Assembly: GCF_021391395.1 (NCBI RefSeq)
Contig: NZ_CP090059.1
Location: 3,085,001-3,149,000 of the forward strand
Source: Sphingomonas cannabina
GTDB lineage: Bacteria; Pseudomonadota; Alphaproteobacteria; Sphingomonadales; Sphingomonadaceae
Direction of reading: 5' to 3'
Length of the DNA stretch: 64,000 nucleotides
The notes under the pieces were generated by a model. It was not told where the DNA came from, made no database searches, and saw only the letters and a list, made by a program, of their open reading frames with translations. How positions within the stretch are numbered: the stretch's first letter is position 1; the number at the start of each line of letters is the position of its first letter. A program made the translations under genes and the position numbers. This document shows positions 23,244 through 38,445 of the stretch, in pieces.

Positions 23244-23330
23244 GCCGGCGGGAGGACCCGCGACGGATGGAAAGCGGCCGCAGCTACTCCTATGGCAGGT
23301 GTCCTTCCTGCTGCTTCGGGAGTCCGCCAA

Positions 23331-23762
23331 ATGCGCCCTGCCCTTTTCGCCTGCTTCGCTCTGGCTGCCACCGGAACGATGGCGCTCGCGCAGCGAGCGG
23401 CGCTCGATCCGCATGACGCGGTTTACGAACTACGCATCTACTATCCGGCACCCGGCAAGCTTGCTGCGCTCAACGCACGGTTTCGCGACCATACGCTCAA
23501 GCTTTTCGAGAAGCACGGCATGCGCAATGTCGCCTATTGGAACGAGCAGCCGACCAAGGACTCCCCTGAGGGACGGGTGGTCTATGTGCTCGCATATCCG
23601 AGCCGGCAGGCAAGGGACGAGGATTGGAAGGCCTTCGGCGAGGACCCCGAATGGCGCGCAGTAGTCGCCAAGTCCGAGGCCGGCGGCAAGCTGGTGACGA
23701 AGGTCGATAGCGTGTTCATGACGATGACCGACTACTCGCCCCCCATCTCACTTCCGCGTTGA
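23331..23762 (+). CDS. Secreted NIPSNAP-family protein
   Basis: Small protein of 143 residues with a Sec signal (MRPALFACFALAATGTMALAQ) and a dimeric alpha/beta-barrel NIPSNAP domain ('AVYELRIYYPAPGKLAALNARF...LFEKHGM'). The start at 23331 is preferred because GGGAG precedes it and the signal peptide begins there. NIPSNAP functions in bacteria are poorly defined. It lies 87 bases after nagA and may be co-transcribed, but nothing ties it to GlcNAc metabolism. Confidence 0.78.
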   Translation: MRPALFACFALAATGTMALAQRAALDPHDAVYELRIYYPAPGKLAALNARFRDHTLKLFEKHGMRNVAYWNEQPTKDSPEGRVVYVLAYPSRQARDEDWKAFGEDPEWRAVVAKSEAGGKLVTKVDSVFMTMTDYSPPISLPR

Positions 23763-23939: not shown

Positions 23940-25118
23940 GTGGTCCAGCTCTACGGCGAAGCGATGACGCGGCGGGCGCTCGCCGAACGCACCGGCAGCC
24001 TGTCGCAGTTCGCCGGCGTCCGGCTCATGACGCTCGGCGACGGGGTCGAGCGGGGCATACGCCAACTGGAGTTCCGCACCGGCACGGGCCTGCGCTTCAC
24101 CGTGCTCGTCGACCGCGCGATGGACATCGCCGAATGCGAGCACGCCGGCCGCGCCGTCGGGTGGCATTCGCCGTCGGGGTTCCGCCATCCGGGGCTGCAC
24201 GAATATGAGGGCGAAGGCGGGTTCGCCTGGCTCCGCTCGATGTCTGGGCTCAACATCACCTGCGGGCTCGACCACATCCTGTTCATGCACGACGATCCCG
24301 CCGGCCATTACCATTACGGCCCGCGCAAGTCGGTCTCCTCGTCGCTTCACGGCCGGGTCGGCACGATCCCGGCTCGGCTCACCGGCTACGGCGAGCGCTG
24401 GGACGGCGACGAATGCGTGCTGTGGGCCGAGGGCGTGGTGCAGCAGGCGACCGTGTTCGGCGAGGACCTGCACCTCATCCGCCACATCGAGGCGAGCGTC
24501 GGCGGCGACGAGATCCGGCTGCATGACCGCGTCGTCAACCACGGCTTCTACCGGACGCCGCACATGTACTGCTACCACGTCAACGTCGGCCATCCGGTGG
24601 TCGCCGAGGGATCGCGCTACGTGGCGCCGATCCGCGAGGTGCTGTGGGCGGCCCATGCCGAGCAGTATCGCGCGCAGGGCGTCGGCTATCGTACCCTCCC
24701 CGCGCCGATCGCCAACTTCCACGAGCAGGTGTGGCAGCACGACATGGCGCCGGACGCCGACGGCCGCGTCAACGTCGCCATCGTCAACGAGGCGCTCGGC
24801 TTCGGCTTCGAGGTCGAGACGCTGAAGGCGCAGTTCCCGGCGATGTACGAGTGGCAGAACCTGCACGCCGGCCATTATGCCGTCGGCATCGAGCCCTCGA
24901 CGAACCACGTCTTCGGCAAGGAGTTCGCGCGCGAGCGGGACGAGCTCATCTGGCTCGAGCATGGCGAGGAGCGGCGCTACGACAGCGTGTTCCGCATGCT
25001 GCCCGATGCCGGGGCGGTGCAGGACGCGATCCGGCGCATCGAAAGCGTCGCGCTCCAGCCCGGCGAGGACTATCCCGCGCAGTCCGGCAACTTTCCACCG
25101 ATCGGAGGCCGAAAGTGA
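23940..25118 (+). CDS. DUF4432 (aldose 1-epimerase-like) protein
   Basis: Protein of 392 residues of the DUF4432 family, which has the galactose-mutarotase fold and is usually found next to sugar catabolism genes. Visible marks: 'GVERGIRQLEFRTGTGLRFTVLVDRAMDIAE', shortened here to its role as the family N-terminal block, 'HGRVGTIPA', and 'YCYHVNVGHPVV' near a typical metal/sugar-binding position. GTG start with GGAGAGG ahead. It has no signal peptide, so it acts in the cytoplasm, possibly as a sugar mutarotase or isomerase. First gene of a five-gene operon whose other products act on CoA esters and hydroxy or keto acids. Confidence 0.8.
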   Translation: MVQLYGEAMTRRALAERTGSLSQFAGVRLMTLGDGVERGIRQLEFRTGTGLRFTVLVDRAMDIAECEHAGRAVGWHSPSGFRHPGLHEYEGEGGFAWLRSMSGLNITCGLDHILFMHDDPAGHYHYGPRKSVSSSLHGRVGTIPARLTGYGERWDGDECVLWAEGVVQQATVFGEDLHLIRHIEASVGGDEIRLHDRVVNHGFYRTPHMYCYHVNVGHPVVAEGSRYVAPIREVLWAAHAEQYRAQGVGYRTLPAPIANFHEQVWQHDMAPDADGRVNVAIVNEALGFGFEVETLKAQFPAMYEWQNLHAGHYAVGIEPSTNHVFGKEFARERDELIWLEHGEERRYDSVFRMLPDAGAVQDAIRRIESVALQPGEDYPAQSGNFPPIGGRK

Positions 25119-25135
25119 TGGGGGTGCGGAAAGTT

Positions 25136-25240
25136 AAGCCCCTCCCCTTCAGGGGAGGGGTCGGGGTGGGGGCTATCCTCAGGCCACCCTGCCTGCCGCA
25201 CTCCCCCACCCCCAACCCCTCCCCTGAAGGGGAGGGGCTT
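25136..25240. repeat. Family B paired-palindrome repeat
   Basis: Arms 25136-25171 and 25203-25240 are near-perfect inverted copies, each with its own small palindrome (CCCCTCCCCTTCAGGGGAGG). The right end supplies GGAGGGG, eight bases before the SDR ATG, so the repeat appears to provide that gene's ribosome site. Confidence 0.85.
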
Positions 25241-25245
25241 GAGCT

Positions 25246-25992
25246 ATGAAAAACCGCACCGTCCTCTACACCGGCGCCGCGGGTGGGCTCGGTCTCGACA
25301 CCACGCTGCTGCTGATGGGACGCGGCGCGACGGTCGTGGCGGTCGACAACGATCCGGCGAAGGTCGCGAAGCTGCGGACGGCGGCCGAGAGCGTGAAGAC
25401 CGGCAGCCTGATCGTCTCGACCGCTGACCTGTCCGACCTCGCCGGCTTCCGCGCCGAGCTCGAACGGCTGCTCGACGAGGCCGGCGGCTTCGACGTCGTC
25501 ATCAACAATGCCGCCATCTACCCCGCCAAGCCGTTCGAGGAGGTCTCGATCGAGGAGCATCAGGCGGTCCAGCGCGTCAACGTCGACGCCGGCATCGTCG
25601 CGGTGCAGGCGGCGCTGCCGGGAATGCGCGAGCGCGGCTTCGGGCGGATCGTCAACATCTCCAGCATCACCATCTCGGGCGGCTGGGCGAACCTGTCGCC
25701 CTATGTCGCATCCAAAGCCGCGCTGATCGGCCTCACGCGGGCATGGGCGCGCGAGTTCGGCGGCTGGGGCGTCACCGTCAACGCGATCGCACCCGGTGCC
25801 TTCCCCACCGACGCCGAAAAGATCCATCCCGATCCCGAAGGCTACAAGCGCATGGTGCTCGACGCCCAGGCGATCAAGCGCCGCGGCACCGCCGCCGACA
25901 TCGCCCACGCGATCGCCTTCTTCGCCGCCGACGAGGCGGGCTTCATCACCGGCCAGACGCTGCACGTGAACGGCGGCTGGATCATGGCCTGA
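25246..25992 (+). CDS. SDR-family oxidoreductase
   Basis: Short-chain dehydrogenase of 248 residues. Cofactor loop 'TGAAGGLGLD' with an Asp at the end of the second strand ('VVAVDND') suggests NAD preference. 'NNAAIYP', catalytic Ser in 'NISSITISG' and Tyr-Lys in 'YVASK' are all present, and the C-terminus ('GQTLHVNGGWIMA') is standard. It follows a GC-rich repeat and is only four bases from the CoA-transferase gene. Probably oxidises a sugar, lactol or hydroxy-acyl intermediate; the substrate is unknown. Confidence 0.88.
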   Translation: MKNRTVLYTGAAGGLGLDTTLLLMGRGATVVAVDNDPAKVAKLRTAAESVKTGSLIVSTADLSDLAGFRAELERLLDEAGGFDVVINNAAIYPAKPFEEVSIEEHQAVQRVNVDAGIVAVQAALPGMRERGFGRIVNISSITISGGWANLSPYVASKAALIGLTRAWAREFGGWGVTVNAIAPGAFPTDAEKIHPDPEGYKRMVLDAQAIKRRGTAADIAHAIAFFAADEAGFITGQTLHVNGGWIMA

Positions 25993-25996
25993 GGAC

Positions 25997-27196
25997 ATGA
26001 ACGGCATGAACATCCTGAGCGGCATCCGCGTGCTCGACTGCTCGATCGCGATGGCGGGGCCCTTTGCCGCCCAGCGGCTCGGCGACCTCGGCGCGGACGT
26101 GGTCAAGGTCGAGCCGACCTCGGGCGAATGGCAGCGCCACGCCGCCGCGGGCGGGGCGACGGGGAAGCAGGTCAACGTCTCCTTCCTCTCGCTCAATCGC
26201 AACAAGCGCTCGCTGGCGATCGACCTCAAGGCGCCCGAGGGCAAGGCGACGCTGCTCGAGCTGGTGAAGACCGCCGACGTCTTTCTCCAGAACTACCGCC
26301 CCGGCGTCGCCGAGCGGCTGGGGGTCGATTATGCGACGCTCGCCGCGATCAACCCGCGCCTCGTCTACGTCTCGATCTCCGGCTATGGCGAGGACGGCCC
26401 CTATCGCCTCTATCCCGGCCAGGACCTGCTGCTCCAGGGCATGTCGGGCGCGATGCTGTCGGCCGGCGCCGAGGGACAGCCCCCCTCCCCCGCAGGCCAA
26501 TATGTCGTCGACGCCGTCACCGCCTACAGCGCCTTCGAGGGCGCGCTGGCCGCGCTCTTCCACCGCGAGCGCACGGGCGAGGGCCAGCTCGTCCAGGTCA
26601 ACATGCTCGACGCGATCACCACCATCCAGATGCAGGAGCTGTCGGTGTTCACCGTCGGCGGCAAGCCGCAGGCCCGCTCCGCCGAGCCCCATGCGCACAG
26701 CTACATCCGCGCACCCTATGGCGTGTTCGCAACCAGCGACGGCTATATCACGCTGGCGATGGCCCCCCTCGCGAAACTCGGCGAGGTGCTGGGCGAGCCG
26801 TTCTTCGCGGGCATGGACGACCAGACCGACGGATGGACGCACCGCGACGCGATCTTCGCGAAGGTGAAGGCCAGGCTGCCCACCGCGACCAGCGCCGACT
26901 GGCTCGAACGCTTCCGCGCCGCCGACATCTGGGCGGGCCCGGTCTACGGCTATGCCGAGCTGGTCGACGACCCGCAGATCCGCCACAACGGCACTTTCGT
27001 CGAGTACGACCATCCGACCGAGGGCCGGGTGAAGACGCCGGGCTTCCCGATCCGCTTTTCCAGGACGCCGTCAAAGGTGGAGCGCGGCGCGCCGCTGGTC
27101 GGCGAGCACAGCCGCGAGCTGCTCGCCGAGATCGGCCTCGACGAGGCCGCGATCGACCGGCTGGTCGAATCCGGCGTCGTGCGCCAGCACGCCTGA
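25997..27196 (+). CDS. Class III CoA-transferase (CaiB/BaiF family)
   Basis: Protein of 399 residues of the formyl-CoA transferase/CaiB family, which moves CoA between carboxylic acids. 'GIRVLDCSIAMAGPFAAQ' opens the Rossmann part, the catalytic Asp is D172 in 'YVVDAVTA' (aligned by eye with Asp169 of formyl-CoA transferase), and 'HRERTGEGQLV' follows. ATGs at 25997 and 26006 are both possible. In an operon with an enoyl-CoA hydratase it should activate an acid produced earlier in the pathway. Confidence 0.88.
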   Translation: MNGMNILSGIRVLDCSIAMAGPFAAQRLGDLGADVVKVEPTSGEWQRHAAAGGATGKQVNVSFLSLNRNKRSLAIDLKAPEGKATLLELVKTADVFLQNYRPGVAERLGVDYATLAAINPRLVYVSISGYGEDGPYRLYPGQDLLLQGMSGAMLSAGAEGQPPSPAGQYVVDAVTAYSAFEGALAALFHRERTGEGQLVQVNMLDAITTIQMQELSVFTVGGKPQARSAEPHAHSYIRAPYGVFATSDGYITLAMAPLAKLGEVLGEPFFAGMDDQTDGWTHRDAIFAKVKARLPTATSADWLERFRAADIWAGPVYGYAELVDDPQIRHNGTFVEYDHPTEGRVKTPGFPIRFSRTPSKVERGAPLVGEHSRELLAEIGLDEAAIDRLVESGVVRQHA

Positions 27197-27208
27197 CGGA
27201 GCGGAAGC

Positions 27209-27979
27209 ATGACTGGCACCCTGCGCTTCACCATCGACGATCAGGTCGCGACGATCCTGATCGACCGTCCCGACAAACTCAATGCCATGACTCCGGAGAT
27301 GGCCGACGCGCTCGTCGTGGCGGTGACCGAGTGCAACACGTCCGACGCGATCCGCTGCGTGATCGTCACCGGCGCCGGCGACCGGGCGTTCTGCGCCGGC
27401 TCCGACATCACGACGCTCGACGCCTATGCAACCGCATGGGACTTCCGCAACCGTGCCGACTATTGCGACGCGCTGCGCGCCTGCCGCAAGCCGGTGATCG
27501 CGGCGGTGAACGGCTATGCGCTGGGCGGCGGGCTGGAGACGGCGCTGGCCTGCGACATCCGCATCGCCTCCGCCACCGCGCGCTTCGCCGCGCCGGAAAT
27601 CAAGCTCGGCTGGATCGGCGGCGGCGGCATGGCGGCGGGGCTTGCGCATTCGATCGGCATGTCCAATGCGGCGATGATGCTGCTGACCGGCGACATGATC
27701 GATGCCGAGCGGGCGCTCGCCTGGGGTTTGGTGAGCGAAGTGCTCGCCCCCGACGCGCTGCTGCCCCGCGCGCAGGAGATCGCGCGCACCATCGCCTCCC
27801 GCGCGCCGATCGCGGCGGAGACCGCCAAGCTCAACCTCGCCGCCGCGTTCAGCATGCCCCACGACAAGGCGATCGAATATGAACGGGACCTCCAGGCGAT
27901 CTGCTTCGCCACCGACGACGCCCGCGAGGGCCGCGCCGCCTTCGCCGAGAAGCGCGTGCCCATCTTCCGGCGCCGCTGA
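27209..27979 (+). CDS. Enoyl-CoA hydratase/isomerase family protein
   Basis: Crotonase-fold protein of 256 residues. The oxyanion-hole segments 'FCAGSDI' and 'YALGGGLE' are intact, and both glutamates of true hydratases are present ('GGGLETALACD' and 'APEIKLGWIGGG'), so hydration of a CoA-thioester double bond is plausible, though crotonases also catalyse retro-aldol and C-C cleavage. It follows the CoA-transferase after 12 bases, which supplies the expected thioester substrate. Confidence 0.87.
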   Translation: MTGTLRFTIDDQVATILIDRPDKLNAMTPEMADALVVAVTECNTSDAIRCVIVTGAGDRAFCAGSDITTLDAYATAWDFRNRADYCDALRACRKPVIAAVNGYALGGGLETALACDIRIASATARFAAPEIKLGWIGGGGMAAGLAHSIGMSNAAMMLLTGDMIDAERALAWGLVSEVLAPDALLPRAQEIARTIASRAPIAAETAKLNLAAAFSMPHDKAIEYERDLQAICFATDDAREGRAAFAEKRVPIFRRR

Positions 27980-27991
27980 GCGGGACCGCCC

Positions 27992-28948
27992 ATGACCCGC
28001 CCCCGCATCCTGCTCACCCGCCGCTGGCCCGAGGCGGCCGAGGCGCGGCTCGCCGAGCGCTATGACCTCACCGTCAGCCCCGACAACAAGCCCCTCGGCG
28101 CCGACGCGCTCGCCGCGGCTATGCGCGACTATGACGCGCTCTGCCCCTCCGCCTCCGATCGTCTTCCCCGCGCCGTGATCGAGACGCCGGGGCGCCGGGT
28201 GCGGATCATCGCCAACTACGGCGTCGGCTACGACCATATCGACATCGACGCCGCGCGCGAGGCGGGCGTGGTCGTCACCAACACCCCCGGCGTGCTCACC
28301 GATGCGACCGCGGACATCGCGGTCATGCTGATGCTGATGACGATGCGCCGTGCGCTGGAGGGCGAGCGCGAGCTGCGTGCCGGCGCCTGGCGGGGCTGGC
28401 GCCCGACGCACCTGCTCGGCCATTCGCTGGAAGGCAAGCTGCTGGGTCTCGTCGGCTTCGGCCGCATCGCCCGCGCGACGGCGAAGCGCGCGGAGGCGTT
28501 CGGGATGCGGATCGCCTATCACAGCCGCCACGTCGCGGAGGACATGCCGGCGGAGGCTTATCACGCCAGCCTCGCCGAACTGGCGGCCAAGGCCGACGTG
28601 CTGTCGCTGCACGCGCCGGGCGGGACCGAGACGCGGCACATGATCGACGCCGCGCTGCTCGCCCGGATGCCGGCGCACGCGGTGCTCATCAACACCGCGC
28701 GCGGATCGCTGGTGGACGAGCCCGCGCTCGCCGCGACGCTCACCGACGGCGGAATCGCAGCAGCGGGCCTCGACGTCTATGCGGAGGAACCGAAGGTGCA
28801 TCCGGCGCTGTTCGATGCCCCCAACATCGTGCTGCTGCCGCACCTCGGCAGCGCGACGGTCGAGACGCGCATCGCGATGGGCATGAAGGTCGCGGACAAT
28901 CTCGACCGCTTCTTCGCAGGCGAAGCGCCGCCCGACCGGGTGGCTTGA
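27992..28948 (+). CDS. D-isomer 2-hydroxyacid dehydrogenase
   Basis: NAD(P)-dependent dehydrogenase of 318 residues of the glyoxylate/hydroxypyruvate reductase type. Nucleotide site 'GLVGFGRIARATAKRA'; catalytic Arg in 'NTARGSLVDE', Glu in 'LDVYAEEP' and His in 'LLPHLGSAT' are all present. Last gene of the DUF4432-SDR-CoA-transferase-hydratase operon, 12 bases after the hydratase. It may reduce a C2-C3 keto acid such as glyoxylate or hydroxypyruvate released at the end of the pathway; this is inference. Confidence 0.88.
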   Translation: MTRPRILLTRRWPEAAEARLAERYDLTVSPDNKPLGADALAAAMRDYDALCPSASDRLPRAVIETPGRRVRIIANYGVGYDHIDIDAAREAGVVVTNTPGVLTDATADIAVMLMLMTMRRALEGERELRAGAWRGWRPTHLLGHSLEGKLLGLVGFGRIARATAKRAEAFGMRIAYHSRHVAEDMPAEAYHASLAELAAKADVLSLHAPGGTETRHMIDAALLARMPAHAVLINTARGSLVDEPALAATLTDGGIAAAGLDVYAEEPKVHPALFDAPNIVLLPHLGSATVETRIAMGMKVADNLDRFFAGEAPPDRVA

Positions 28949-28987: not shown

Positions 28988-31018
28988 TCATTCCGGCGGA
29001 CGCCTCGCCCCGGCCCCGGCAATCACCCCCCGCGCCTCGGCCGGCCAGTCGCGATCCGGCACCAGCACGTTGTCGCGCGCTACATTCCCGATCTCCTCCA
29101 GCCAGCGGCCGCCGGTCGTCTCCGAATTGTGCCAGTTGCCGGTGGCGACGTTGTCGGTCGAGATGCGCCGGCGGTACATCTTGCCCGCGGTGTTGATGTT
29201 GAGCCACTTGCCCCGCGTCTCGACGACGTTGCCGGTCACGCGGAAATGCTTGCTGCCCTCGTCGAGGTAGATGCCGATCCGGTCGCCGATGTCGAAGATA
29301 TGGTTGCCGCGGATCACCGCGCCGGGGTTGGCGGAGAGGTTGTAGATCGCGCCGCCGTCCATGAACCACTGCTTCACGCCATGGATGCGGTTGCCCTCGA
29401 TCACCGTGTCGCGCAGCGTCGTCGGCGTCGTGTAGCGGGTGTTGTGGACATAGCCCTTCTGGTTCTCGTCGTAGTTCGGGTTGCCCCCCGCATCGTTGTA
29501 GCCCCAGCCCCAGCCGACCGCGATCCCATCATAGGGCGCATCGGAGACGTCGTTGTGGGCGATGCGCGCGCCGGTGATATAGGTCGTCAGGATCGCGGCA
29601 TTGTCCTTGTAATCCTGGCTGACGGTCGCGACGACATTGTCCTCGATCGTGAGGTCGCGGTTCACCAGCGCCGGGTCGCTCGGGTGATGGGCATCGGCCC
29701 GCACGCCCCCGGCCATGATCGCGCCGCCCGAGAGCACGCCGAAATGATTGCGCGCCACCCGGATGCCCGCGGTGGCGAGACCGGTGCCGGCGAGATTGGC
29801 ATTGGCATCGTTGCCGATGCCGAGCGCCACCTGCCCGAGCTGGGTGAAGCGATTGCCCTCGAACGTCACGTCGCGCGCCGCCGCGACCTGCACCGCGGCC
29901 GGGATCTGGTTCCAGCGCTGGCGCATCGATTCGAACTCGACGCAGCCCCAGCCGCAGCTTTGCCAGGCATCCTTCGGCCGGATCGGCGACACTTCGGCGA
30001 GGAAGGCGCCGCTCTGCTGATTGGCATAACCCGCCGGCCGCGACGGCCCGAGCCACGAGCTGTAGGAGAAACGCAGACCGCGGAAGGTCAGCCGCTCGAT
30101 CGGCGCGGCCGGCGTGCCGGCGATGGCCACCAGCGTCTCCAGCGTCGGCAGCACGACGGTCAGCTTGCCGATGTCCTCGTCCTGCCCGATCCGGAGGTAG
30201 AGCTTGCCCGCCGCGGGATCGAGGAACCACTGGCGCGGCTTGGCGTGCCAGTCGTTGGTCTTGCCGATGAACTCCAGCGCGTTGACCAGGAACAGCCGCG
30301 AATCCGCCGGGAAGATCGGCTTGGTCAGCGTGTCGTAGCCCCAGCTGTTGTTGTCCCACGCCGGCTGCTGCATCGTCACGCTACGCCCGGAAATCGCCTT
30401 CACCGGCGAGACGCGGTCGGTGAAAAAACCGGTCGCCTCGAGCTCCAGCCGCTCGGGATGCTTGACCGCCGCGACATAGCTGAGGTCGGGATTGACGATC
30501 TCGAAGCCGGTCGCGGTGAAGGCGAGGTCGGTCGGCTTGATCTCGATCCACGGGCGCTCGGCGAGCGTGTCGTTCACCCACAGCTGGCGGGACTCGAGCC
30601 CCTTCGGCACGTCGGCCACCCAGATGCGCCGCTCCTCGTCATAGGGGCGGAAGCCGGTCACGGTGATGCCGCCGGAGATGACCGGCGAAGCGCCGTCCGC
30701 CGCACGCCATTCGACGCGGTGGCCGCGCTGCCCGCCGTCCGCGGCACGGAAGACGAGCGGCTTCCGCAACCGATAGGTGCCGCCGGCCAGCACCACCGTC
30801 ACGTCGCCGCGAGCGTTGGCGGCCCGGACCAGCGCCTGCGCCCGTTCGAGCGACCGCACCGGCCGCGCCGCACTGCCGGGGGCGCGGTCGTCGCCCTGGG
30901 GCGAGACGTGGATCGTCGCATCCTGTGCCTGCGCCGCTGTGGCGAGGCACAGGCCGGCGAGAAGCGCAGCTCCGCGCCGCAAGAGGGTCAGCAACGCTTT
31001 CCGCCCCGATCGTTCCAT
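28988..31018 (-). CDS. Secreted right-handed parallel beta-helix protein, possibly GH141-like
   Basis: Exported protein of 676 residues (signal 'LLAGLCLATAAQAQ') made almost wholly of beta-helix coils. The opening 'IHVSPQGDDRAPGSAARPVRSLERAQALV', described here as the family entry block, the 'PVISGGITVTGF' segment and 'RQLWVND' resemble GH141 enzymes (alpha-fucosidase or xylanase) and related helical glycosidases; later coils repeat N-x-I/V steps ('IEDNVVATV', 'IEGNRIHGV', 'IRGNHIFDI'). Conserved acidic residues near 'YDGIAVGWGWGYND' and 'MDGGAIYN' could be catalytic. It follows the TonB receptor by 16 bases and is probably co-expressed, so it likely acts on the imported polymer. A lyase or esterase activity is also possible. 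Confidence 0.7.
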   Translation of the reverse strand: MERSGRKALLTLLRRGAALLAGLCLATAAQAQDATIHVSPQGDDRAPGSAARPVRSLERAQALVRAANARGDVTVVLAGGTYRLRKPLVFRAADGGQRGHRVEWRAADGASPVISGGITVTGFRPYDEERRIWVADVPKGLESRQLWVNDTLAERPWIEIKPTDLAFTATGFEIVNPDLSYVAAVKHPERLELEATGFFTDRVSPVKAISGRSVTMQQPAWDNNSWGYDTLTKPIFPADSRLFLVNALEFIGKTNDWHAKPRQWFLDPAAGKLYLRIGQDEDIGKLTVVLPTLETLVAIAGTPAAPIERLTFRGLRFSYSSWLGPSRPAGYANQQSGAFLAEVSPIRPKDAWQSCGWGCVEFESMRQRWNQIPAAVQVAAARDVTFEGNRFTQLGQVALGIGNDANANLAGTGLATAGIRVARNHFGVLSGGAIMAGGVRADAHHPSDPALVNRDLTIEDNVVATVSQDYKDNAAILTTYITGARIAHNDVSDAPYDGIAVGWGWGYNDAGGNPNYDENQKGYVHNTRYTTPTTLRDTVIEGNRIHGVKQWFMDGGAIYNLSANPGAVIRGNHIFDIGDRIGIYLDEGSKHFRVTGNVVETRGKWLNINTAGKMYRRRISTDNVATGNWHNSETTGGRWLEEIGNVARDNVLVPDRDWPAEARGVIAGAGARRPPE

Positions 31019-31034: not shown

Positions 31035-33782
31035 TCAGAAGCGGAAGCGCACGCCGGCGGAGATGCGCCGTCCGGTCTTGCGATACTCCTTGGTGCGGTC
31101 CTCGCTCACCGAATAGATGAATTCCTTCGCGTCGTTGAGGTTGGTGCCCTCGGCGAAGACGGTGAACTGGGGATTGACGTCGTAGGACAGGCTCGCGTCG
31201 AGCTGGCCATAGGCGTCGAAATATTCGGGCTCGCCGTTGCGGCCGGAGGCGACCTGGAGGAAATTGTCGCGCCAGGTATAGGCGACGCGCGCCTGCAGCC
31301 CGTATTTCTCATAATAGCCGACCAGGCTGTACGACCATTTCGACAGCCCCTCGAGCCCGAAGCTCACATTGGCCACCGTGTTGGTGTAGCTCGCGTTGGA
31401 GTCGGTGTAGTTGAGGCTGGTCTGCACGCCGAACCCACTGAGCGCGCCGGGCAGGAAGGTGAAGGCCTGGCGATAGCCGAGCTCGAAGCCCTTCACCGTC
31501 GCGCCCTTGCCATTGTCGGGCACCGTGACCTGGAAGGTCACCTGGTCGACGAGCTGCGGCGTCGTCACCAGCGTCACGAACGAATCGATATCCTTGTAGA
31601 AGACGGCGGCGTTGAGCAGCGCCGAAGGCGAGAAATACCATTCGAGGCCAGCCTCGACCTGCGTCGCGCGAAACGGCTGCAGGTCGGGATTGCCGCGGCG
31701 GATCGTCTCGTTGCCGGGATTGGTCTGGATCGACTGGCGCGGCGACAGGTCCGACAGCGTCGGCCGGGTCATCACCCGCGAGGCGGCGACGCGGAAGATC
31801 AGGTCGTCGGTCAGCGACAGCCGCGCGTTCAGCGACGGCAGCCAGTCCTGATAATGGCCGCGGAAGCCGACCGGGACCACGCCCGACAGGACGATGTCGT
31901 TCTGGCCGGTCGGGTTACCGTTGGCGTCGACGCGCTGCTTCGCGCTGACGATCGTCTGCGACGCGCCGTTCGAGGTGTAGATCGTGTCCTCGAACCGGAC
32001 GCCGGCGTTGATCGTCAGCGGCATGCCGGCGAGCCGCGTCTCCCAGGTGCCCATCACGAAGCCGACCTTGACGTGCTCGTCGACGACCGAGGACGCGGCC
32101 GGCGAGAAGACGGCGGGGTCGAAGGTCTTGCCGTCCTGCGCGGCATATTGGTCGATCAGTTGGACCAGCGCGCGTGGATCGTAGCTGATCCAGTCGCGGA
32201 CGATGTTGTCGCTGCCGCCGCCTGAGAAGAAATAGCGGTTGGTCGGCCCGAACAGCGACGTCGGCAGCGCGCGGTCTGATCCGCAATAGGCGCATTGCTG
32301 GCCGAACGGCATGTCGTTGCCGGTCAGCGTCTTCTTGCGGTCGGCATACATGCCGCCGACGTTCAGCGTGAGGTTGTCGAACAGCTTGTACTGCAGCTCG
32401 CTGCGATATTCGCCGATTTCGTCGTCGACGTCGGTGCCGCCGCCCCAGATATAGTAATGCGCGGTCAGCCCCTGCGGATTGGTCGCCGCGTTCGGATAAT
32501 TGGGGCTGCTGAAGCCATAGTCGTAGATCGGGCTGCCCGAGCGGCGGTCGAACCACAGGTCGACGTTCTTGCGCCGGATCGTGGTGAACAGGCTGTCGTT
32601 CCGCCCGCGTCGCCGCGCCGCCGACTGCGAGGCGTCGACGGTCAGCTTGAGCCGGTCGCTCGGTTCCCAGGCGACGTTGAGGCCGTACTGGTCGGTCGTG
32701 ACGTTGCGCACGTCGTACTGGATGATCTCGTCGACGAAGCCGCCCCGGTAGCGCTGGTAGACCGCCTCGTTGCCCTCGACCACCTGCTCGACCAGCGTGC
32801 CGCCGGAGAAGTCGTAGGCGAGGCCGGTCTGCTGCTCGGTGAAGTCGGCCTTGGCATAGAGGCCGTCGAGCGTGACGGTGAGCGTGTCGGTCGGCTTGAA
32901 CTGGATCGATCCGTTGAGGCCGAACCGCTTCAGCTGCCGCTCGAAGAAGAAGGGCGACAGGTTCGAGGGCATCGAGACGTTGGAGAAGGGCGCGACGTCC
33001 GGCCCGATGCGCCCGCCCTGCACGCCGCCGGCGGTATAGTAGGAGTCGGTGCTCGACCGCCGCACATGGCCGGCGCCGATCGTGAACTCGTCGTCGCGGA
33101 CATGCTGGTCGGTGTAGACGGCGGCGAGCGAGACGCCGAACGTCTTGCTGTCGTTGCGCCAGCTGACGACGCCCGAGACCTCGGGATTGTAGCGGTCGGC
33201 GACCTCGGCCCACTGGATGTTGGCCGATCCGGTCGCGAGCAGCCCCGCCTTCTGGTCGAGCGGGCGCAGGGTGCGCACGTCCACCGTCGCGCCGATCGAC
33301 GCGCCGTTGATGTTGGCCTGGGGCGACTTGTAGACGTCGGCGCCGCTGATCACCTCCGACGGCAGCACGTCGAACGAGAACTCGCGGCCGTTGTTGTCGG
33401 TGGCGAGCGTACGGCCGTTGACCGTCACCGCGTTGAACTTGGGTCCGAAACCGCGGACGGTGACGTAGCGGCCCTCGCCGCGGTTGCGCTCGATGGTGAC
33501 GCCGGCGATGCGCTGAAGCGATTCGGCGACGTTCTGGTCGGGCAGCTTGCCGAGATCCTGCGCGACGATCGAGTCGACGACGTTGACCGCGTCCCGCTTC
33601 AGGTCGATCGCCGCGCGCTCGCTTGCGCGGATGCCGGTGACGACGATATCCGCCTCGGATTGCGCCGTTTCCTCGTCCGTCGCCTGCGCCTGCTGCGCCG
33701 CGGCCACACCACTCCACAGCAGCGCACCCGCCGCCGTCGCCGCGAGCAACGCCCTGCGCGCGCGCCCATCCAAATACGCCAT
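31035..33782 (-). CDS. TonB-dependent receptor (TonB-Xanth-Caul type)
   Basis: Outer-membrane receptor of 915 residues. Signal peptide to 'GVAAAQ', TonB box 'DIVVTGIRAS', plug with 'QDLGKLPDQNVAESLQRIAG' and 'VRGFGPKFNAVTVNGR', barrel ending 'ISAGVRFRF'. GGGGAGG lies six bases before the ATG. It heads a two-gene unit with the beta-helix protein, and a GntR-type site lies 65 bases upstream. The cargo is probably the oligosaccharide whose breakdown this locus encodes. Confidence 0.9.
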   Translation of the reverse strand: MAYLDGRARRALLAATAAGALLWSGVAAAQQAQATDEETAQSEADIVVTGIRASERAAIDLKRDAVNVVDSIVAQDLGKLPDQNVAESLQRIAGVTIERNRGEGRYVTVRGFGPKFNAVTVNGRTLATDNNGREFSFDVLPSEVISGADVYKSPQANINGASIGATVDVRTLRPLDQKAGLLATGSANIQWAEVADRYNPEVSGVVSWRNDSKTFGVSLAAVYTDQHVRDDEFTIGAGHVRRSSTDSYYTAGGVQGGRIGPDVAPFSNVSMPSNLSPFFFERQLKRFGLNGSIQFKPTDTLTVTLDGLYAKADFTEQQTGLAYDFSGGTLVEQVVEGNEAVYQRYRGGFVDEIIQYDVRNVTTDQYGLNVAWEPSDRLKLTVDASQSAARRRGRNDSLFTTIRRKNVDLWFDRRSGSPIYDYGFSSPNYPNAATNPQGLTAHYYIWGGGTDVDDEIGEYRSELQYKLFDNLTLNVGGMYADRKKTLTGNDMPFGQQCAYCGSDRALPTSLFGPTNRYFFSGGGSDNIVRDWISYDPRALVQLIDQYAAQDGKTFDPAVFSPAASSVVDEHVKVGFVMGTWETRLAGMPLTINAGVRFEDTIYTSNGASQTIVSAKQRVDANGNPTGQNDIVLSGVVPVGFRGHYQDWLPSLNARLSLTDDLIFRVAASRVMTRPTLSDLSPRQSIQTNPGNETIRRGNPDLQPFRATQVEAGLEWYFSPSALLNAAVFYKDIDSFVTLVTTPQLVDQVTFQVTVPDNGKGATVKGFELGYRQAFTFLPGALSGFGVQTSLNYTDSNASYTNTVANVSFGLEGLSKWSYSLVGYYEKYGLQARVAYTWRDNFLQVASGRNGEPEYFDAYGQLDASLSYDVNPQFTVFAEGTNLNDAKEFIYSVSEDRTKEYRKTGRRISAGVRFRF

Positions 33783-33863: not shown

Positions 33864-35108
33864 CTAACGGACCGACCGGATCGGCAGAACGCACAGCGCC
33901 GAGGCGAAGACGAAGGCCAGCGCCGCCCACAGGATCGCGCGATAGTTCCCGTCGAAGATGCCGAGCAGCACCGCCGCCATCACCGGGCTGATGATCTGCG
34001 GGATGTTGACCGCGGTGGTGAGGACGCCGAGGTCCCTGCCCTCGTCGCCCAGCGCGCTCTTGGGCAGCACCTGCGTCATCAGGGCGATGTCGATCGACAT
34101 GAACATGCCGTAGCCGACCCCGATCACCGCGGCGTAGACCCACATCCCCGCCATCGACGGCGCGATCAGCGGCGCGGCCATCGCGCAGCCCATGATCAGG
34201 CTGCCGGCGACCACGAAGGGCTTGCGGCGCTGGATGCGATCGGACCACCAGCCCGAGACCAGCGACGCGATGATCAACGTAACCAGCGTCACGATCGCCA
34301 TGTTGGCGATGGCGATGTTCGACTCCCCGTCGCCGAGGCCGATATAGTCGCGCAGGATGTAGAGCAGATAGGCCGCGACCGCCTGATAGCCCATGTAGAT
34401 GGTGAAGCGGCTGAGGAACGCCCAGGCGAAGTCGGGATGCTCCCGCGGGCTGATCCAGAAGCCGCGCACGAACTCCCCCCAGACGAAACGCCGCGCCGGC
34501 ATCTGAGCGCTCGACGGCTCGCGGTTCACGGCGATGAAGGCGAGGCACGAGGCGGCGATCGCGGCGGCGAACAGGCCGTAGGCGACCGTCGGCGTGCTCG
34601 CGAGATAGCCGGCGACCACGGTGCCCGCGGTCAGGCCGGCCGTCATTCCTGCCCCCACGATCCCCGACACGCCGCCCCGCGTCTCCGGCGCGAAACGGTC
34701 GGCGATCAGCGTGGTCATCGCCGGCTGCATGGAATTGTAGGCGATCGCCGCCATCACCCACAGCACCATCACCGACCAGAAGCTGGTCATCCACGACACG
34801 CCGAACAGGCACAGCGATCCGACCAGCGATCCGACCGCGATCCACGGTGCCCGCCGCCCCCAGCGGCTGCGCGTCCGGTCCGACAGCGCCCCCGCGACGG
34901 GCGTCGCCAGCGTGGAGAAGACCGAGGTCACCGCGAACAGCAGCGCGAGGTTGTTCGCCTTGTCGCCGGGATCGAGCTTCGCGATCTGGTTGGGCAGCAG
35001 CACACCGAGCACGCCGCTGTAGAGCGCCATCAGCAGGAAGAAATTGACCATCAGCGAGAACTGCAGCCGCGTCCGCTGCCGGCCGAGCACCCAGGCGTGC
35101 GTGGTCAT
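33864..35108 (-). CDS. MFS sugar transporter (GPH/SLC45-like)
   Basis: Inner-membrane transporter of 414 residues with about 12 membrane segments. The loop 2-3 motif 'SDRTRSRWGRRAPWI' is typical of glycoside/hexuronide cation symporters and SLC45-like sugar carriers. The ATG overlaps the stop of the enolase-superfamily gene (ATGA), so the two are coupled. It would carry the sugar product from the periplasm to the cytoplasm after TonB uptake. Substrate unknown. Confidence 0.88.
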   Translation of the reverse strand: MTTHAWVLGRQRTRLQFSLMVNFFLLMALYSGVLGVLLPNQIAKLDPGDKANNLALLFAVTSVFSTLATPVAGALSDRTRSRWGRRAPWIAVGSLVGSLCLFGVSWMTSFWSVMVLWVMAAIAYNSMQPAMTTLIADRFAPETRGGVSGIVGAGMTAGLTAGTVVAGYLASTPTVAYGLFAAAIAASCLAFIAVNREPSSAQMPARRFVWGEFVRGFWISPREHPDFAWAFLSRFTIYMGYQAVAAYLLYILRDYIGLGDGESNIAIANMAIVTLVTLIIASLVSGWWSDRIQRRKPFVVAGSLIMGCAMAAPLIAPSMAGMWVYAAVIGVGYGMFMSIDIALMTQVLPKSALGDEGRDLGVLTTAVNIPQIISPVMAAVLLGIFDGNYRAILWAALAFVFASALCVLPIRSVR

Positions 35109-36271
35109 CCGCGCTGGTCCGCGCCGGCCCGCCGGTCGGGGACGAGGCGCAGCCCCGCCTCGCGCGGCCGCCGGTGCGGCCCGCCGCTCGCCTCCCAGCT
35201 CCCCTCGACCCGCTCGCGCGCGATCATCCCCTCGTCGACGACGATGCCGAGCCCCGGCCGATCGCCGAGCACGATCCCGCCGTCGGCGATCTCTTGGTCG
35301 ACATCGAGCCCGAGCGGCCACTCGAAATCCTGCACCTCGATGCCGATCATGTTCGGCACCGCCGCAGCGGCGTGCGCGACCGGATTGCCGTCATAGGCGA
35401 CCGGCGAGACCGGCAGGTCGCGCGCATGTGCGGCGATGGCAACCCGGTTGAAATGGGTGATCCCCCACACGCTGCCCGTCTGCACGACATCGACCGCATC
35501 CGCGTCGAACAGCGGCGCGAATTGCTCCAGCCCCGTCAGATTCTCGCCCGTAGCCACCGCCGCGCGCGTCGCCCGCGACACCGCGGCATGGCCCGCCGCG
35601 TCCCAGCGCCGCACCGGCTCCTCGATCCAGGTGAGGTCGATCCCCGCCGCCTCGATCGCGGCGAGATGGCGGATCGCCTGCTTGCGGTTCCAGCTCTCGT
35701 TGACGTCGAGCATCAGCGCGGGCTCTGCGCTGTTGGCCGCCAATATCTCCCGCGCCCGCTTCAGTCGGACGATATCGCGCGCGATATCCTTGCCGCCCTT
35801 GATCTTGGCCGAGGTGAAGCCGCGCTCCGCCCAGCGCGCATAGAGTACCGCAAACGCATCGTCGTCGAGCCCGAAGCACAATCCCGAGGCATAGCCCGGA
35901 ACGAACCGGTCTGCCGCCCCCAGCGTCCGCCACAGCGGCTCGTCCGCCATCTTCGCCTTGAGATCCCACAGCGCCATGTCGACCGCCGCGATCGCGCCAT
36001 AGGTGGCGCCGCCATGGCCGCTCTTGAAGACATGCGACAACATGCTGTCGTAAAGCGCTGCGACGGCACGCGGATCCTGCCCTTCCACCGCCGGAAAGAC
36101 GCGGTCGATATCGACATGCTGACCGAGCCCGATGCCTTCCAGCCCGGCGTCGGTCTCGAGGATCAGGATCGGCACCTCGGTGATGCCCGACGTCACCACG
36201 CCGTTCACGTCACCGACCGGGCGCCCCCAATCATGCGAGGTGACGAGGCTTCGGTAGCCGGTGACTTTCAT
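35105..36271 (-). CDS. Mandelate racemase/muconate lactonizing (enolase superfamily) protein
   Basis: Protein of 388 residues that should abstract a proton next to a carboxylate, as sugar-acid dehydratases do. Metal ligands are visible: Asp in 'MLDVNESW', Glu in 'WIEEPV' and Glu in 'ATGENLT', and the K-x-K base in 'SAKIKGG'. The usual His-Asp dyad of the MR/galactarate/fuconate branch appears to be absent: the 'QPD...GGIT' region reads 'QTGSVWGIT' and the 'PHAGG' region reads 'SPVAYDGNP' (alignment by eye). AAGGATG precedes the ATG. Coupled to the MFS gene and divergent from the GntR regulator. Confidence 0.82.
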   Translation of the reverse strand: MKVTGYRSLVTSHDWGRPVGDVNGVVTSGITEVPILILETDAGLEGIGLGQHVDIDRVFPAVEGQDPRAVAALYDSMLSHVFKSGHGGATYGAIAAVDMALWDLKAKMADEPLWRTLGAADRFVPGYASGLCFGLDDDAFAVLYARWAERGFTSAKIKGGKDIARDIVRLKRAREILAANSAEPALMLDVNESWNRKQAIRHLAAIEAAGIDLTWIEEPVRRWDAAGHAAVSRATRAAVATGENLTGLEQFAPLFDADAVDVVQTGSVWGITHFNRVAIAAHARDLPVSPVAYDGNPVAHAAAAVPNMIGIEVQDFEWPLGLDVDQEIADGGIVLGDRPGLGIVVDEGMIARERVEGSWEASGGPHRRPREAGLRLVPDRRAGADQRG

Positions 36272-36442: not shown

Positions 36443-37183
36443 ATGACCCATTCTCCTCCCACCCCCGAAGCCGCCCGCGTCCGCCGGCGCCCCCGCCTGG
36501 CCGAGGCGGTGGTCGAGGATCTGGTCAAGGCGATCGTGACCGAGACCTATCCCGCCGGCACCGCGCTGCCGCCCGAGGGGATGCTCGGTGACATGTACGG
36601 CGTCAGCCGCACGGTGGTGCGCGAGGCGACGATGGCGTTGACGGAGAAGGGCCTGGTCGTCTCTCAGCAGGGCCGCGGCACGATCGTCCGGGAATCGAGC
36701 GCCTGGGACATGCTCGACCCCATGATCCTCGGCGCATTGTTCCAGCGGGAGGACGGCCTCGCCTATCTCGACAATCTCTCCGAGATCCGCTCGCTGCTCG
36801 AAGGGGCGATGGCGGCGAAGGCGGCCGAGCGCCGCACGCCGGAGATGGTCGACGCGCTCACCCGCCAGATCGACAAGCTGGAGACGCTGATCCCCGTCCC
36901 CGCCGCCTATGTCCATGAGGACGTGATGTTCCACGACATCATCATGCGCATGTCGGGCGACCGGCTGAGCAAGGCGGTGATCGACGGCGTGCAATCGGAG
37001 GCGCTGCGCACCCACGAATATAGCGGCAAGCTCAACATCGAGCACATCAAGGACACCCACGCCGCGCACCGGCGCATCTACGAGGCCATCGTCGCCGGCG
37101 ACGCCGAGGCGGCGTCGCGCGCGATGCGCAGCCACATCGAGGAATCCTGGGCCCGCCGCCGAGCGGAACGCCGCGCGCGATAG
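36443..37183 (+). CDS. GntR-family regulator, FadR/FCD subfamily
   Basis: DNA-binding regulator of 246 residues. Winged helix (about residues 15-85): 'ETYPAGTALPPEGMLGDMYGVSRTVVREATMALTEKGL', noted for its 'PPEG...SRTVVREA' core. The C-terminal all-helical FCD domain (about 95-235) has the Asp/His pattern ('HDIIMRMSGD', 'THAAHRRIYEAI') that binds a metal and an organic acid ligand. Divergent from the enolase and transporter genes; it is the natural candidate to bind the three similar sites near 23909, 33847 and 36331, with a sugar acid or pathway intermediate as inducer. Confidence 0.88.
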   Translation: MTHSPPTPEAARVRRRPRLAEAVVEDLVKAIVTETYPAGTALPPEGMLGDMYGVSRTVVREATMALTEKGLVVSQQGRGTIVRESSAWDMLDPMILGALFQREDGLAYLDNLSEIRSLLEGAMAAKAAERRTPEMVDALTRQIDKLETLIPVPAAYVHEDVMFHDIIMRMSGDRLSKAVIDGVQSEALRTHEYSGKLNIEHIKDTHAAHRRIYEAIVAGDAEAASRAMRSHIEESWARRRAERRAR

Positions 37184-37363: not shown

Positions 37364-38356
37364 TTAGGCGCCCGATTCCGCGAACACCCCATGCCGCGCA
37401 GCAAAGGCCGCGAACAGCGACGGCCAGACGGACGCCGGCATCGTCGCGGGCAGGCGCACCCCGAAGCCGTGGCCGCCTTCCTCGAACACATGCATCGCCA
37501 CCGGCCGCTTGGCGGCCTGCATCGCCTGGAACATGGCGATACTGTTGGCGACCGGCACCACATCGTCGTCGACGGTGTGGAGGAGGAAGACGGGCGGCGT
37601 CTCAGCATCCACCCGGAGCTCGACCGACCGCGCGCGCCGCTGCGCCGGCGACGCATCGGGACCGAGCAGATTGTCGCGCGATCCGCCATGGGCGAACGGC
37701 GCATCGAGGCTGACGACCGGATAGATCAGCCCGGCGACGTCAGGCCGGGCGGCGAGGCGATCCGCCTCGTCGACCGGCTCGTAGACGCGCTCGGCATGGC
37801 GTGTCGCCAGCGATCCGGCGAGGTGCCCGCCCGCCGAAAAGCCCAGCACCGCCACCCGGTCCGGCCGGATCGCGAACCGGTCCGCCCGGGCGCGGACCAG
37901 CCGCATCGCGCGCTGGGCATCCTGCAGCGGCACATCCTCACGGCGGCTCCAGCCCTCGCCCGGCAGGCGGTAGAGCAGGATGAAGGCGGTGATCCCGCGC
38001 GCGTTGAGCCAGTCCGCCTGGCTGATCCCTTCATTGTCATAGGAGAGAAAGCCATAGCCGCCGCCCGGCACCACCAGCACGGCCGAACCGTTCGGCCGCG
38101 CGGGTCGCCGCACCACTAGCACCGGACGATCGATGCCGGTGACCCAGCGGTCGGGCTTGGCAGGATCATGTGACTGGTCATCGATCTTGCGGACGATGCG
38201 TGCATCGGTCTTGCCTGGCGGATCGCCCGGCCACAGCTCGATCACCTCGTCGCCGGGCTGGATCTGCGCGAACGCCGCGCCGGGTACGGACGCCAGCACC
38301 GCGGCGGCGCCCAGCATCGTGCGGCGCGTCAGCCGCGTTTCGATGTGCCCTTCCAT
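37364..38356 (-). CDS. Exported alpha/beta-hydrolase (carbohydrate-esterase-like)
   Basis: Protein of 330 residues with a Tat-like signal ('LTRRTMLGAAAVLASVPGAAFA'). The oxyanion segment 'VVPGGGYGFLSYDNEG' and the nucleophile elbow 'LGFSAGGHLAG' mark the BD-FAE/acetyl-esterase branch; Asp in 'HTVDDDVVPV' and His in 'EEGGHGFG' complete the triad. The start at 38356 has GAGAGGA ahead. It may deacylate polysaccharides before uptake by nearby receptors, but it is separated from the neighbouring locus by a repeat and may be independent. Confidence 0.83.
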   Translation of the reverse strand: MEGHIETRLTRRTMLGAAAVLASVPGAAFAQIQPGDEVIELWPGDPPGKTDARIVRKIDDQSHDPAKPDRWVTGIDRPVLVVRRPARPNGSAVLVVPGGGYGFLSYDNEGISQADWLNARGITAFILLYRLPGEGWSRREDVPLQDAQRAMRLVRARADRFAIRPDRVAVLGFSAGGHLAGSLATRHAERVYEPVDEADRLAARPDVAGLIYPVVSLDAPFAHGGSRDNLLGPDASPAQRRARSVELRVDAETPPVFLLHTVDDDVVPVANSIAMFQAMQAAKRPVAMHVFEEGGHGFGVRLPATMPASVWPSLFAAFAARHGVFAESGA

Positions 38357-38445
38357 TCGTCCTCTCAGCAGCGAATCCGTCACACCGGATGGCGTGTCAG
38401 GCAGCTTAGCCGCGGCTCACCGGAGAGATCAATTTGGCCAATGCT

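Follow-up and report, generated by a model that had tools for sequence, protein, structure and literature searches.

A gene set resembling an undescribed coenzyme A-dependent route for a plant-wall sugar acid in Sphingomonas cannabina and other bacteria

We analysed a stretch of 64,000 nucleotides (the window) from the genome of Sphingomonas cannabina, a single contig of 4.39 Mb (NZ_CP090059.1, positions 3,085,001 to 3,149,000), and in particular a plus-strand operon of five genes at 23940-28948 together with the divergent genes beside it. From its sequence, this gene set looks like an undescribed, coenzyme A (CoA)-dependent form of catabolism of a plant-wall sugar acid that is common to many bacteria; a literature search, which reached few subscription papers, found no description of the operon. 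We document its gene content, its conservation and the catalytic residues that are kept. The gene set is best read as a branch of pectin-sugar catabolism running through CoA esters, which would deliver a 2-oxo acid to a reductase, with the substrate and the order of reactions inferred. That sugar acids are processed here as CoA esters at all is somewhat better than an even bet, and for any single sugar as the substrate the likelihood is low at best. The unit comprises the following genes (positions in the window):

23940..25118, plus strand: DUF4432 protein, aldose-1-epimerase-like (mutarotase-like) (PF14486, 311 bits)
25246..25992, plus strand: SDR, presumed sugar or sugar-acid dehydrogenase (PF13561, 174 bits)
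25997..27196, plus strand: class III CoA-transferase (CaiB/BaiF), here CaiB (PF02515, CoA_transf_3, 361 bits)
27209..27979, plus strand: crotonase-fold protein, here ECH (PF00378, ECH_1, 206 bits)
27992..28948, plus strand: D-2-hydroxyacid dehydrogenase (D2HDH), glyoxylate/hydroxypyruvate-reductase-like (PF02826, 189 bits)
28988..31018, minus strand: right-handed beta-helix protein, GH141-like, signal peptide recognised by eye (PDB 5mqp)
31035..33782, minus strand: TonB-dependent receptor (PF00593, 139 bits; Plug, 64 bits)
33864..35108, minus strand: MFS sugar or acid carrier (MFS_1, 161 bits; MFS_2, 48 bits)
35105..36271, minus strand: enolase-superfamily (MR/MLE) protein, here ENO (PF13378, 145 bits)
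36443..37183, plus strand: GntR/FCD regulator, start chosen by eye and domain scan run on 36509-37183 (FCD, 84.5 bits; GntR, 57 bits)

Within the Sphingomonadaceae the CoA operon and the opposite-strand arm belong together. Four gene searches (CaiB, DUF4432, ENO and the beta-helix protein) were run on one draw of 397 genomes of this family. CaiB was found in 10 genomes, DUF4432 in 11 (the same 10 and G256), ENO in 10 (nine with CaiB, and G119 at 39% identity), and the beta-helix protein in 17, namely all 10 CaiB genomes and seven more, including G356, in which the match has 54% identity and CaiB is absent. In eight genomes ENO and CaiB lie 3 to 12 kb apart; in the ninth they share a contig at a distance of about 56 kb. 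The co-occurrence of ENO (at least 72% identity) with CaiB has a hypergeometric probability of 1.6e-17, uncorrected for kinship; the ten CaiB genomes come from six of 96 genera, so that kinship is allowed for only in part.

The five plus-strand genes are intact and lie in one orientation with gaps, calculated from the coordinates, of 127, 4, 12 and 12 bp from DUF4432 to D2HDH. An earlier note, made from the sequence alone, had named these five families as co-oriented and closely spaced, and had placed an enolase-superfamily protein, a carrier, a TonB receptor and a beta-helix protein on the opposite strand; Pfam scans, open reading frame coordinates and PDB matches bear out both lists. Its term 'GPH-like' suits the carrier poorly, since MFS_1 scores well above MFS_2 and the GPH model TIGR00792, with a cut-off of 231 bits, gives a score of 37; structure searches with the transporters named no ligand. 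The enolase and carrier genes overlap by 4 bp, and the regulator gene is divergent from the enolase gene; in the loci L009, L011, L012 and L014 of relatives it adjoins the DUF4432 gene. The gap between DUF4432 and SDR (25119-25245) contains a strong hairpin at 25139-25160. In L052, L056 and L070 there is no such gap, and DUF4432 and SDR overlap by 4 bp; stop-start overlaps of this length are common, occurring in relatives as far apart as Sphingomonas (L052) and Streptomyces (L129).

The earlier note had proposed a search of gene neighbourhoods and held that its reading would fall if the genes never co-occurred in other genomes; they do co-occur in the family, and outside its order, too, the core is found next to sugar genes. 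Among CaiB relatives 328 were confirmed and the best 80 loci kept (75-90% identity), 79 of them titled Alphaproteobacteria and one, L060, titled Proteobacteria. CaiB relatives were also present on 45 plasmid records, Streptomyces and Variovorax included, of which nine were inspected. Eight of these nine stretches have annotated genes, and in seven of the eight DUF4432 ('aldose 1-epimerase family'), SDR, CaiB and ECH are annotated together, the Variovorax and Pararhizobium plasmids having an importer and further genes between SDR and CaiB; the eighth has CaiB with FAH, MaoC and aldehyde dehydrogenase genes and no annotated ECH. A gene annotated as a solute-binding protein (SBP-like) stands directly 3' of CaiB in six of the eight. 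We then counted genes in 90 sources (the window stretch, the 80 loci and the nine plasmid loci), keeping matches at a coverage of at least 50% and an identity of 33-60%, depending on the gene; some queries came from counted loci, and L058, L071, L081 and L104 are short. ECH was present in 87 sources, SDR in 72, DUF4432 in 71, SBP-like in 63, a long FAH-family gene in 39, RhaM in 32, GlyK (a kinase read as glycerate kinase) in 31, D2HDH in 30, beta-helix in 23, GH28 in 21, LldD in 19, GH78 in eight and short-FAH diketo-hydrolase genes in nine (the copy in L069 with 446 bits against a cut-off of 500). The core, i.e., DUF4432, SDR, CaiB, the crotonase and usually the SBP-like gene, is found again in Variovorax, Streptomyces and further Alphaproteobacteria, where it often adjoins sugar importers, glycosidases or sugar-acid enzymes: sugar ABC importers accompany it in rhizobia, D2HDH and GlyK were seen in loci of sphingomonads, caulobacters and Rhodospirillales, and in Streptomyces L129 a beta-helix gene, weakly similar to that of the window, and an L-rhamnose-mutarotase gene lie within about 7 kb of it. 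A MaoC-like gene is found inside the CaiB locus in nine of the 90 sources (L077, L082, L086, L094, L108, L112, L118, L131 and L135), which hints at linked substrates.

The operon might instead degrade an acid that does not come from a sugar, whether fatty, aromatic or carnitine-like, with sugar genes adjoining it by chance. Such acids are what the CaiB and ECH families mostly serve, and ECH stays with CaiB even where DUF4432 was not seen; however, in several orders DUF4432, glycosidases, sugar importers or mutarotases accompany the core, and across the 397 genomes CaiB is linked to ENO and the beta-helix protein, and we regard this explanation as improbable.

Catalytic residues, counted in rows of set length from open reading frame calls, are kept in most enzymes of the operon. 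The single PDB relative of the DUF4432 protein at E up to 1 is 3ty1, a 'Hypothetical aldose 1-epimerase' (E 6e-31). The SDR keeps Ser140, Tyr153 and Lys157 in 42 of 42 rows and Asn88 in 37 of 42. Asp172 of CaiB, which we take to be the catalytic Asp of class III CoA-transferases, aligns with the Asp of solved relatives and is kept in 66/66 rows of 380-420 residues. D2HDH has Arg237, Glu266 and His284 in all 21 rows, and its best NCBIfam model is glyoxylate reductase (290 bits, cut-off 455). The crotonase keeps Glu130, the equivalent of rat Glu144, in 43/43 rows, and many invariant polar residues between its positions 65 and 87 would fit a polar substrate. In ENO, Lys156 and Lys158 (the KxK motif), Asp189, Glu217 and Glu243 are kept in 8/8 rows.

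In the proposed mechanism, the two divergent arms and the GntR/FCD regulator would form one unit for the uptake and catabolism of one pectin-derived sugar. The secreted, GH141-like beta-helix enzyme would free the sugar, and the TonB receptor and MFS carrier would import it; the DUF4432 protein would speed ring interconversion, and the dehydrogenases would oxidise the sugar to a sugar acid, on which the enolase-superfamily enzyme and the CoA branch would then act. CaiB might swap CoA onto the sugar acid, the one-Glu crotonase might eliminate water from the CoA ester or split it, and D2HDH might reduce the 2-oxo acid fragment (hydroxypyruvate or similar), the product being passed to glycolysis, in relatives, by the putative glycerate kinase. 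The identity of the sugar, the order of the steps and the action of CaiB on a sugar acid are what we infer in this scheme. That a piece resembling glyoxylate or hydroxypyruvate is reduced, as the earlier note had already suggested, is plausible, as 31 of the 90 sources have the putative glycerate kinase, mostly beside D2HDH. GlyK itself has a PRK-family Pfam match and no NCBIfam match.

Several observations weigh against this mechanism, at least in the form drawn for the window. A canonical enoyl-CoA hydratase has two catalytic Glu (rat Glu144 and Glu164), and the crotonase had been described as retaining both; at position 156, the site of the second, Glu is present in none of 43 rows and is replaced by Leu, Met, Ile or Arg, and further alignments agree, so that this description has to be given up. 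Acid-sugar dehydratases of the MR group have the KxK motif, three metal ligands and the His of a His-Asp dyad; ENO has Val291 at the column of this His in 8/8 rows, with no His in the alignment to 2ovl. Because the second Glu of the crotonase and the His of the enolase are missing, both textbook hydration and textbook dehydration are uncertain. The SBP-like gene, present in 63 of the 90 sources, is absent from the window locus, where a gap of 12 bp separates CaiB from ECH (by coordinates it is absent from L023 and L025 too), and its sole match in this genome, at 44% identity, belongs to another CoA module; a GlyK-type gene gave no match in this genome, in a search that had no positive control. 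When 80 of the 90 sources were grouped by order from record titles (L060 and the nine plasmid loci left out), the 39 rhizobial loci proved to be without beta-helix, GH28, D2HDH and GlyK genes, and DUF4432 was not seen in 19 of the 90 source stretches; the complete unit, as it stands in the window, is thus limited to a lineage, and the endings differ. Finally, the beta-helix protein is related to BT_1002 (PDB 5mqp; E 1e-35, two aligned stretches covering 390 of 676 residues), which acts on chain A of rhamnogalacturonan II (RG-II), and GH141 also includes xylanase and endo-fucanase members, according to the accessible parts of PMC10154630 and PMC12786026; with several activities in the family, the beta-helix protein cannot fix the sugar. 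Its GH141-like label comes from this homology. Asp554 and Asp586 do not vary across 16 rows, but they lie outside the stretch aligned with BT_1002, and their equivalence to its catalytic pair (D523 and D564 in the same sources) is a guess from motifs.

The CoA branch might work in either of two chemical versions, dehydration or C-C cleavage. A carnitine-type CoA cycle could serve as the sugar-acid dehydratase, with CaiB moving CoA from product to substrate, the crotonase dehydrating, and the 2-keto-3-deoxy acid passing through the long FAH-family enzyme and an aldehyde dehydrogenase (ALDH) to 2-oxoglutarate. Azospirillum L097, in which CaiB, SBP-like, ECH, long FAH and ALDH genes are consecutive, fits this cycle, and its stretch gave no match to the enolase queries, other types of aldonate dehydratase not having been searched. 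The accessible part of PMC6336799 describes FAH-type 2-keto-3-deoxypentonate dehydratases. In L106 the gene after the long FAH encodes an ALDH that scores best with the model of alpha-ketoglutaric semialdehyde dehydrogenase (539 bits, cut-off 770); this suits the main reading as well, since the module would seem to lead into sugar-acid endings that are already known. The long FAH-family protein of L129 matches 9kkt (FAH-family) with 421 bits and 2-keto-3-deoxy-D-arabinonate dehydratase with 56 bits. However, the second hydratase Glu is gone, D2HDH and GlyK are left unexplained, and the ALDH of Azospirillum L098 reaches only 100 bits, to a different model; we therefore treat the cycle as a tentative alternative. 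Slightly more doubtful is a cleavage in which the one-Glu crotonase would split a C-C bond of a CoA-bound keto sugar acid (retro-Claisen or retro-aldol), yielding a C3 acid for D2HDH and GlyK and a second acid, e.g., L-lactate or glycolate. It agrees with the consecutive D2HDH, GlyK and LldD genes of L070 and L074 and with the LldD of L019, which exceeds the NCBIfam L-lactate dehydrogenase cut-off (660 versus 550 bits), but it leaves the long FAH unexplained, and L-lactate could instead arise from the short-FAH diketo-hydrolase genes of nine sources. Less likely again, though the most novel chemically, CaiB, the SBP-like protein and the one-Glu crotonase may constitute a new sugar-acid dehydratase or lyase working on catalytic CoA, the SBP-like fold being an enzyme subunit, for acids beyond ordinary aldonate dehydratases, such as the branched, deoxy or 2-O-methylated acids of RG-II. 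In relatives the SBP-like protein begins, as read from the sequence, within a few residues of its conserved motif, which suggests that it is cytoplasmic.

Known systems resemble the window unit in part. The carnitine cai system pairs a class III CoA-transferase with a crotonase, as does the window operon, but the latter has no CoA ligase among its five genes (Pfam scan), has lost one crotonase Glu and is surrounded by sugar genes. The earlier note held that known sugar-acid routes do not pass through CoA esters; this is not supported, since one that does has been proposed for deoxyribonate in Klebsiella michiganensis (Price et al. 2019, PMC6365646). In the accessible part of that paper, the deoxyribonate route likewise handles a sugar acid as CoA esters, with a CoA-transferase and, in the Klebsiella cluster, a glycerate kinase; it differs in its own CoA-synthetase, hydroxyacyl-CoA dehydrogenase and thiolase, and no crotonase, DUF4432 or enolase-superfamily gene is mentioned there. 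The Weimberg and diketo-hydrolase pathways (Routes II and III; PMC6336799, accessible part) share with this module a dehydratase, an SDR and FAH-type enzymes, and such a set exists in this genome at 4.19 Mb; the word 'coa' is absent from the text of that paper. The window operon differs in having no FAH gene: a Pfam scan of ten proteins found no terminal FAH-type enzyme (aldolase families were not searched), and the three PF01557 matches of the genome all lie outside the window. If the CoA-ester branch of pectin-sugar catabolism is real, a route by which bacteria widely use plant-wall sugars would have been missed because its enzymes resemble fatty-acid and transport proteins; it would provide a concrete gene set for the use of rare pectin sugars, possibly with a new CoA-driven dehydration or splitting of sugar acids, and the occurrence of the core in rhizobia, Azospirillum, sphingomonads and Streptomyces makes it testable in easily grown strains.

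As to the substrate, a pectin sugar is favoured, possibly a fucose-type L-sugar, because of the likeness to BT_1002, the rhamnogalacturonidase genes, the CoA module beside GH106 and apiosidase-domain genes, and a fuconolactonase-like cluster. The GH28 of L019, the sole locus GH28 scanned, exceeds the NCBIfam rhamnogalacturonidase cut-off (535 versus 500 bits), and two GH28 proteins over this cut-off and a GH88-family protein are encoded elsewhere in this genome. A paralogous CoA module (L028, G000:C1:4172000-4191900) contains two CaiB, SBP-like, MaoC, Gfo/Idh, SDR and sugar ABC genes, the last recognised by eye; beside it are encoded GH106 (719 bits), GH42 (395 bits) and an apiosidase-domain protein (373 bits), and its region is a candidate apiose or RG-II locus. 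Together with the BT_1002 likeness, this module lends indirect support, at the level of homology, to a link with pectin or RG-II. At 4.32 Mb a fuconolactonase-like protein (149 bits, cut-off 400) is clustered with RhaM and an AKR, the latter named by eye, and similar genes adjoin the CoA operon in L073 and L078. Aceric acid, the example given in the earlier note, is not singled out: the BT_1002-like enzyme and the neighbours of the paralogous module would suit it, but the homology to BT_1002 indicates RG-II as a whole, nothing favours aceric acid over L-fucose, xylose derivatives, apiose or L-galactose, and the module is also present in rhizobia with sugar ABC importers. We consider aceric acid a very improbable substrate.

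Two other sugars were set aside. L-rhamnose, though not excluded, is no longer the obvious substrate given a likely L-rhamnose diketo-hydrolase set at 4.19 Mb (L155, G000:C1:4190000-4205900, several names by eye) with LldD, short FAH and GH78, whose short FAH and LldD are 60% and 65% identical to those of the relatives; the genome has two RhaM genes, both outside the window, and RhaA was not found in it. For D-xylose there is a likely Weimberg set with a long FAH at 3.18 Mb (names partly by eye). Two neighbours were likewise not counted as members of the unit: the NIPSNAP gene at 23292-23762, which had no kept match among ten relatives, and a PaeX-like, pectin-acetylesterase-like protein at 37364-38383 (PaeX model 295 bits, under the cut-off of 550), which adjoins the regulator and whose query matched the window alone (1/90 sources at the chosen threshold). 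The part of the window upstream of the operon (3-23243) is a separate amino-sugar/glycan region with GH20, GH2, GH3, an alpha-L-fucosidase (PF01120), SIS and NagA-like genes, and PTS genes recognised by eye.

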